IMG/VR virus record: IMGVR_UViG_3300024255_000120 | Span: 1-27,863 of that record | Origin: a virus | Strand: one strand, 5' to 3' | DNA: 27,863 nucleotides | Part shown: positions 1,431-2,774 of the stretch, in pieces | Layout: every line of letters starts with the position of its first letter | Numbering within the stretch: the first letter of the stretch is position 1 | Notes under the pieces: model-generated | Database searches by the model: none | Told to the model about the DNA's origin: nothing | What the model saw: only the letters and a program-made list of their open reading frames with translations | Position numbers and translations under genes: made by a program

Positions 1431-1459
1431 TTGGCACTGCCTCTCACAACCCCTATAAT
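1431..1459 (+). promoter_or_regulatory. Strong sigma70 promoter predicted to give a leaderless mRNA
   Basis: TTGGCA (1431-1436), an exact 17-nt spacer and a perfect TATAAT (1454-1459). Only AAGGAC separates the -10 box from the ATG at 1466. With the usual -10 to +1 geometry, transcription would start at the A of the start codon. The AAGGA could be read as a Shine-Dalgarno, but it ends 1 nt before the ATG, which is too close to work normally. Confidence 0.8.
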
Positions 1460-1470
1460 AAGGACATGAA
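1443..1470 (+). repeat. 28-bp promoter/start repeat, copy 1
   Basis: The 28 bases spanning the upstream CTCACA.CCCC, the TATAAT box, AAGGAC and ATGAA are identical at 27 of 28 positions to 1689-1716. The repeat ends just inside the coding regions, whose protein sequences are unrelated. Confidence 0.9.
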
Positions 1471-1663
1471 CAAAACAACTTACGAGATCACCTGCCCTGC
1501 CCTTGGGGAGACCGAGACCACGACCGATCTGGATCGTGCCATGGACCTTTGTTTCTCAATGCACGATGAGTCAGATTCTTATGCATACATCCGTGATTCA
1601 TTCGGTGATATCGTAGGCGAGTATGGTGACATTATGCAAGCGGTTTCAGACCACTTGGTTTAG
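1466..1663 (+). CDS. Small acidic hypothetical protein (65 aa)
   Basis: ATG 1466 lies 6 nt after a perfect TATAAT. A longer frame is open from GTG 1349, but it overlaps the previous gene and would translate the promoter. The product begins MNKTTYEITCPALGE and contains TTTDLDRAMDLCF (helix) followed by SYAYIRDSFGDIVGEYGD, a strand-turn pattern rich in Asp, Glu and Tyr. There is no membrane segment or known motif. It is probably cytoplasmic and expressed early from its own leaderless transcript. A perfect hairpin follows the stop. Function is unknown. Confidence 0.75.
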   Translation: MNKTTYEITCPALGETETTTDLDRAMDLCFSMHDESDSYAYIRDSFGDIVGEYGDIMQAVSDHLV

Positions 1664-1671
1664 TGTCACAT

Positions 1672-1690
1672 AGGGGCAGGCAATGCCCCT
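1672..1690 (+). terminator. Perfect hairpin without T tract
   Basis: AGGGGCA (1672-1678) pairs with TGCCCCT (1684-1690) across loop GGCAA. It follows the 65-aa gene by 8 nt and overlaps the -35 region of the next promoter. The missing T tract makes it a weak terminator; it may instead block ribosomes or protect RNA 3' ends. Confidence 0.5.
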
Positions 1691-1716
1691 CACATCCCCT
1701 ATAATAAGGACATGAA
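1689..1716 (+). repeat. 28-bp promoter/start repeat, copy 2
   Basis: Matches 1443-1470 at 27 of 28 positions (one A/T change). It includes the -10 box, the 6-nt gap and the first codons of the 60-aa gene. Confidence 0.9.
1700..1705 (+). promoter_or_regulatory. Perfect -10 box giving a predicted leaderless mRNA
   Basis: TATAAT is followed by AAGGAC and then the ATG at 1712, the same arrangement as at 1454-1468. The -35 position (CAGGCA, 1677-1682) is poor and lies inside the hairpin at 1672-1690, so this copy may be weaker. Confidence 0.65.
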
Positions 1717-1894
1717 AAACATTCAACGCCACGGCATCTTCATCACGACTCAAGACCCCTCCCCTAGGATGCAGTCTGTGATGGAGAAGATCCAACGCCA
1801 GCATCAGGCAGAGCACGAGTACAGGCAGGCAGTGAGAGCAGGTCGCATCGAGCAGGTCCAATCCACTAACTGGAACATCAGCGACAGACATTAG
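1712..1894 (+). CDS. Small basic helical hypothetical protein (60 aa)
   Basis: The ATG lies 6 nt after TATAAT. The product begins MKNIQRHGIFITTQDPSP, and from about residue 18 is a long amphipathic Gln/Arg/Glu-rich helix (RMQSVMEKIQRQHQAEHEYRQ...) ending in NWNISDRH. Net charge is positive and His is frequent. A single long helix after a short strand suggests an oligomerising or RNA/protein-binding peptide, but no family is recognised. Codon use is GC-richer than in the structural genes. It is probably an early gene with its own leaderless message. Confidence 0.75.
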   Translation: MKNIQRHGIFITTQDPSPRMQSVMEKIQRQHQAEHEYRQAVRAGRIEQVQSTNWNISDRH

Positions 1895-1895
1895 A

Positions 1896-1914
1896 CCCTG
1901 ACCCTGTAGACTAA
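1896..1914 (+). repeat. 19-bp promoter repeat, copy 1
   Basis: CCCTGACCCTGTAGACTAA is identical to 2157-2175. It carries the -10-like box TAGACT used by the following gene. Confidence 0.9.
1907..1912 (+). promoter_or_regulatory. -10 box TAGACT giving a predicted leaderless mRNA
   Basis: TAGACT is preceded by TG and followed by AACAGC and then the ATG at 1919, the same 6-nt gap as in the two TATAAT promoters upstream. No good -35 is visible. The identical spacing in a different sequence supports function. Confidence 0.5.
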
Positions 1915-1918
1915 CAGC

Positions 1919-2152
1919 ATGAGAAACGAAACCATGATCCAAACCAAATGCATCGCCGTCATCGGTGGCACTGATTACGAGGGAGAGTCCTTTGATTCTC
2001 TTCGTCTCTTTGATTGCCAATCAACTGCCGACCTCTACAAGGCAAAGCTCCAGCAGAGGTTTGATTACGTCCTAGTTGAGGTTCGGGAGGTTTCACAGTA
2101 CAGCGCCATGATGGGAGGGACAATCGAGGCACTGGCACAGTTCGCCGCCTAA
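1919..2152 (+). CDS. Small hypothetical protein (77 aa)
   Basis: ATG 1919 is 6 nt after a TAGACT box. Internal ATG 1934 (MIQTKC) is a possible alternative start giving 72 aa. The product contains IQTKCIAVIGGTDYEGESF, then LRLFDCQSTADLYKAKLQQ and YVLVEVREV, suggesting strand, helix, strand and a compact alpha/beta fold. The C-terminus is small and Ala-rich (EALAQFAA). No catalytic motif is recognised. It lies between two copies of a 19-bp promoter repeat and has GC-rich codon use. It is probably an early cytoplasmic protein of unknown function. Confidence 0.75.
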   Translation: MRNETMIQTKCIAVIGGTDYEGESFDSLRLFDCQSTADLYKAKLQQRFDYVLVEVREVSQYSAMMGGTIEALAQFAA

Positions 2153-2156
2153 TCCC

Positions 2157-2175
2157 CCCTGACCCTGTAGACTAA
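2157..2175 (+). repeat. 19-bp promoter repeat, copy 2
   Basis: Identical to 1896-1914. The -10-like TAGACT falls at the same place in the repeat, but here the ATG is 23 nt away rather than 6. Confidence 0.9.
2168..2173 (+). promoter_or_regulatory. -10 box TAGACT for the 84-aa gene at 2197
   Basis: It lies 23 nt before the ATG at 2197, giving a 17-nt leader made almost wholly of A and C, with no Shine-Dalgarno sequence. The -35 match is weak. Confidence 0.5.
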
Positions 2176-2196
2176 ACTCAAGAAACAAAACAAACA

Positions 2197-2451: not shown

Positions 2452-2479
2452 TAGGCAACGCCACCAGATCGACTAGACT
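2452..2479 (+). promoter_or_regulatory. Sigma70-like promoter for the 73-aa gene
   Basis: TAGGCA (2452-2457, 4/6 match to TTGACA), a 16-nt spacer and TAGACT (2474-2479), ending 25 nt before the ATG at 2505. The predicted leader is A/C-rich without a Shine-Dalgarno sequence. Confidence 0.5.
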
Positions 2480-2504
2480 TTAAAAGAACAAACGAACAAA
2501 CATC

Positions 2505-2742: not shown

Positions 2743-2751
2743 TGCTACAAT
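2743..2751 (+). promoter_or_regulatory. Extended -10 promoter
   Basis: TGCTACAAT is a TGn extended -10 element with hexamer TACAAT (2746-2751). It lies 23 nt before the ATG at 2775 and predicts a 17-nt A/C-rich leader. There is no -35 match, as expected for some extended -10 promoters. The in-frame ATG at 2742 overlaps this box and is not used. Confidence 0.6.
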
Positions 2752-2774
2752 ACACAAGAACACGACACGACACC

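Follow-up and report, generated by a model that had tools for sequence, protein, structure and literature searches.

Conserved spacing of promoter hexamers and start codons predicts leaderless small genes in a T4-like cyanophage

Genes and promoters of the cassette

The window, that is, the whole analysed stretch of 27,863 nucleotides from the virus record IMGVR_UViG_3300024255_000120, comes from a T4-like cyanophage (Kyanoviridae). Over the first 8 kb it matches Synechococcus Kyanoviridae, and the best match is S-CAM3 (78% covered, 72.6% identity). Genes 1, 2, and 3 lie within a cassette of small head-to-tail ORFs on one strand, upstream of gp25 and gp6 (Table 1). For all three the only matches are PHROGs of unknown function; the Pfam search with these genes matched no family. 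Among the orthologues of genes 1 and 2 the substitutions pile up at third codon positions, and therefore these small proteins are real.

Table 1. Promoter elements, genes, and short leaders in the cassette (window positions; aa, amino acids)
Feature	Position	Strand	Description
Promoter 1, -35-like TTGGCA	1431-1436	+	17-nt spacer to -10 box
Promoter 1, -10 box TATAAT	1454-1459	+	unchanged in 10 distinct upstream regions of leaderless orthologues
Promoter 1, discriminator AAGGAC	1460-1465	+	6 nt; read from sequence
Gene 1	1466-1663	+	65 aa; PHROG 25733; predicted leaderless, predicted +1 at 1466
Hairpin GGGGCA-GGCAA-TGCCCC	1673-1689	+	gap between gene 1 and promoter 2, over the -35 position of promoter 2; no T-run; read from sequence
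Promoter 2, -35 CAGGCA	1677-1682	+	weak (3/6); by reading
Promoter 2, -10 box TATAAT	1700-1705	+	read from sequence
Promoter 2, discriminator AAGGAC	1706-1711	+	6 nt; read from sequence
Gene 2	1712-1894	+	60 aa; PHROG 14769; predicted leaderless, predicted +1 at 1712
Promoter 3, possible -35 CAGACA	1885-1890	+	4/6, 16-nt spacer; in last codons of gene 2; by reading
Promoter 3, -10 box TAGACT	1907-1912	+	read from sequence
Promoter 3, discriminator AACAGC	1913-1918	+	read from sequence
Gene 3 from ATG1	1919-2152	+	77 aa; ATG1 at predicted +1
Gene 3 from ATG2	1934-2152	+	72 aa; alternative start with 15-nt leader
Gene 4, promoter and leader	2168-2196	+	TAGACT; +1 about 2180; 17-nt A-rich leader before ATG 2197
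Gene 5, promoter and leader	2474-2504	+	TAGACT; leader about 19 nt before ATG 2505
Gene 6, promoter and leader	2746-2774	+	TACAAT; leader about 17 nt before ATG 2775

Direct reading confirmed the arrangements described in a sequence-only reading of this DNA, namely TATAAT/AAGGAC/ATG in front of genes 1 and 2, TAGACT/AACAGC/ATG in front of gene 3, and TTGGCA at a 17-nt spacing from the first -10 box. A good -35 element at the sigma70 spacing of 16-18 nt is seen for promoter 1 only, those of promoters 2 and 3 being weak. In contrast to these genes, genes 4, 5, and 6 have predicted leaders behind hexamers of the same kind. The ORF at 2505-2726 was identified as DUF7249 (PF23907) and that at 580-906 as Kyanoviridae Gp96 (PF23790), both small proteins with short-leader promoters.

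Inverted repeats like the hairpin before promoter 2 also stand in front of this promoter in S-CAM1 and in some other relatives. The gene 2 family has a conserved C-terminal NWNISDRH (WNISDRD in S-CAM3), encoded at 1868-1894 of the window, and the possible -35 element of promoter 3 lies in these last codons.

Around the orthologues of genes 1 and 2 (loci L391-L398) the public annotation has overlooked or mis-started these genes. The CDS is absent from the region in S-H9-1, ACG-2014j, and S-MbCM7, the annotated start of S-RIM44 gp187 is 75 nt too late, and in S-RSM4 and S-H9-2 annotated calls on the opposite strand cover part of the region.

Spacing of hexamer and start codon in related phages

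Does the equal spacing between hexamer and ATG reflect selection, as the sequence-only reading had argued? The block CCTATAATAAGGAC is present in exactly two copies in the window, against 0.26 matches expected at up to two mismatches. The two copies are identical and may represent one duplicated promoter block, so the window alone is no proof of selection. The copies are not independent of each other, and the support for selection came from the relatives.

In the orthologues of genes 1 and 2 the hexamer, six nucleotides, and the ATG are retained while the six bases between change completely. Gene 1 orthologues keep the hexamer TATAAT and have the discriminators AAGGAC, GTCATC, GTCAGC, GGTTGC, AAGTGC, GTCTGT, GTCTAC, and GTCAGT before the ATG. 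Among gene 2 orthologues the hexamer is TATAAT, TATACT, TACAAT, or CATACT, and the discriminator AAGGAC, AAAGAC, AACAGC, AGGGAC, AGCCAC, AAGCAC, AGGCAC, GGTCAC, TGACTC, or AAGAGC. Column information in the leaderless upstream regions is highest from -12 to -7 (with -11, -9, and -7 invariant), low from -4 to -2, and high for C at -1. As far as sequence comparison goes, this shows that the spacing has been kept by selection for genes 1 and 2.

Translation of these two genes very probably begins at the ATG behind the box, given their coding conservation and the lack of a near alternative: gene 1 has no other in-frame ATG, GTG, or TTG within 24 codons, and the first alternative in-frame start of gene 2 is codon 20. 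The predicted leaderless geometry of genes 1 and 2 is thus strongly supported. In locus L500, an exception among their orthologues, the hexamer is poorly placed, and L486, L495-498, L536, and L550 form a leadered minority. Leaderless and leadered forms can be swapped inside one orthologue group, as in S-CAM1 (L002) versus S-CAM3 (L001), and also in L486. In the former case the S-CAM3 gene has a 15-nt leader (L001:3539), whereas its S-CAM1 orthologue has the leaderless block and three extra N-terminal codons (L002:3866).

The position of starts relative to the predicted +1 was then counted in 11 complete or nearly complete cyanophage genome records, with the same filter at every offset. This filter (C at -1 and A/C-rich sequence) was picked after the first examples had been seen and was applied equally to all offsets; it gave 20 starts at offset 0 and a second mode at offsets 14-26, and none of the other offsets between -6 and +13 had more than four. 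T4 and Ma-LMM01 had zero starts at offset 0 in the filtered scan. With a restricted hexamer set and no filter the excess was modest (56 at offset 0 versus a mean of 32, sd 8). Genome-wide histograms for any TANNNT with automatic ORF starts were too noisy, and no signal was visible in them. A hexamer scan over the fetched loci was discarded as biased by the way in which these loci had been found.

In cassette-bearing loci 26 starts fall at offset 0 versus 0-5 at each offset from -7 to +14, followed by 17, 17, and 13 at offsets 15-17. Clear +1 cases number from one to four per genome in 8 of the 11 genomes and are clustered in the cassette upstream of gp25; S-PM2, Syn9, and P-SSM2 had no +1 gene in the filtered scan. 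Small genes of the predicted leaderless type are thus common among these genomes, not universal.

Promoter copies, reading frame, and competing explanations

Promoter blocks were also searched without a start codon in the query. Behind the same block stands either an ATG exactly at the predicted +1 or one of ATC, ATA, and AAG with an A/C-rich leader of mostly 15-22 nt, for example ATGAAC versus ATCAAAC...ATG. The +3 base in the leadered A/C-rich copies is C in 124, A in 69, and T in 7. Where an ATG at +1 is followed by a second ATG in the A/C-rich copies, the two are in the same frame in 52 of 52 and out of frame in none. The second ATG has an offset of 15 to 27, always a multiple of three. 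These copies are spread over about 10 families whose independence is approximate, as they were obtained by single-linkage clustering. If the ATG at +1 were unused its frame relative to the later start would be random, and the 52 of 52 in frame run against this.

Gene 3 has a second in-frame ATG at 1934, 15 nt downstream of ATG1 (AUG at +1 and +16). It may be a leadered gene, with a 15-nt leader (ATGAGAAACGAAACC) and translation from ATG2, the ATG at +1 being incidental or a minor second start; we give this reading slightly less than an even chance. ATG2 is the start in the leadered gene 3 orthologues L566 and L581, the PHROG 17343 match begins only at residue 6 of gene 3, and 15 nt is among the most frequent leader lengths in the leadered class. 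Against this, ATG1 is held at exactly 6 nt from the hexamer in nearly all orthologues, ATG2 always follows it at a distance of 15 nt, and the complete absence of out-of-frame ATGs at +1 in the A/C-rich class would be unexpected were ATG1 unused. Judged from the sequence, gene 3 is ambiguous between a leaderless start at ATG1 and a start five codons further in at ATG2. The sequence-only reading had treated all three genes as leaderless and proposed an alignment of related cyanophages as a check. Its interpretation stands for genes 1 and 2, where the 6-nt spacing is held in divergent orthologues with no near alternative start; for gene 3 a start at ATG2, where the leadered orthologues begin, is about as likely.

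The hexamers might not be operative promoters at all, with the genes carried on, and translated from, longer upstream transcripts and the -10-like boxes incidental. The head-to-tail order on one strand and the weak -35 matches of genes 2 and 3 would agree with this. However, the distance from hexamer to ATG is fixed while the flanks diverge, no workable Shine-Dalgarno sequence was seen in the leaderless orthologues, and the same boxes precede leadered genes at a different but narrow spacing, so that we hold this explanation to be improbable.

Still a little less probable is that the repeated geometry reflects shared descent of one copied promoter block, with the start position set without selection. 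Such copying is suggested by CCCCTATAATAAGGACAT, nearly identical before unrelated genes and present in two copies in the window, but TATAAT, TATACT, TACAAT, CATACT, TAGACT, and TATTGT with many discriminators all occur at the 6-nt spacing, and the reading frame is preserved. AAGGAC as a Shine-Dalgarno sequence was ruled out: it lies 1 nt from the ATG, gives way to unrelated bases in the orthologues, and is kept where no ATG follows.

Known leaderless genes and the proposed mechanism

Leaderless genes are already a known kind. The mRNA of phage lambda cI, a case also named in PMC9938897, is leaderless, its message beginning at the AUG. The genes described here would resemble cI as phage genes with a message predicted to start at AUG; in contrast to cI, a lysogeny regulator of a temperate phage, they encode many unrelated small proteins of T4-like cyanophages.

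A published sign of bacterial TA-led leaderless genes is a TANNNT box lying about 12 bp ahead of the start codon (Zheng et al. 2011, PMC3160421); according to the same survey, neither SD-led nor leaderless genes are in use in many cyanobacterial genomes. Our genes are alike in having a Pribnow-like TANNNT box about 12 bp before the start codon and, by reading, no Shine-Dalgarno sequence at a workable distance. Unlike the TA-led genes of that survey, they lie in a lytic phage cassette and alternate there with genes that have the same type of promoter and a short leader.

Leaderless translation has been documented in a cyanobacterium for CvkR of Anabaena, where cas12k also has a leaderless mRNA (PMC9938897); 51 leaderless mRNAs have been reported in Synechocystis, as cited in that paper. 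For Prochlorococcus, leaderless mRNAs are regarded as likely (PMC5607370). The phage genes share with the former cases a start codon that is the transcription start, as predicted here, and ribosomes of the host's phylum. The cyanobacterial cases were established by mapped 5' ends and CvkR expression tests, while the phage genes are predicted by comparison. We found no report of leaderless genes in cyanophages in titles and abstracts of the open-access literature searched.

Genes 1 and 2 are very probably leaderless genes with sigma70-type promoters of their own, the base at +3 setting the mode of initiation and gene 3 carrying both options. This proposal is built on the observed sequence, the conservation of spacing, the bimodal start position, the frame constraint, and the coding conservation. 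For genes 1 and 2 transcription would start at the A of a conserved CAT, in which the C is the final base of the discriminator and the AT belongs to the start codon. A sigma70-type RNA polymerase, which we infer to be that of the host, would begin at this A and produce messages with a 5'-AUG, and ribosomes of the cyanobacterial host would read them as leaderless. Early expression, initiation by 70S ribosomes, and a part in host takeover, as suggested in the sequence-only reading, are conjecture. With G at +3 the AUG would stand at the 5' end; with another base a 15-22 nt A/C-rich leader without a Shine-Dalgarno sequence would follow. The same promoter type would serve both kinds of genes, and the gene 3 message would contain the AUG at +1 plus the in-frame AUG at +16.

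A wider idea, which we consider rather unlikely, is that Kyanoviridae maintain promoter cassettes whose +3 base switches a gene between leaderless and short-leader forms, the leaderless form being advantageous to these small genes at a certain point in the takeover of the host, such as a shortage of initiation factors or 30S subunits. Leaderless starts may account for small genes that are often missed or mis-started in public annotation. Genes of both kinds, leaderless and short-leader, behind one type of promoter would provide a natural paired set in marine phages, which is testable and bears on the question of why leaderless translation persists.
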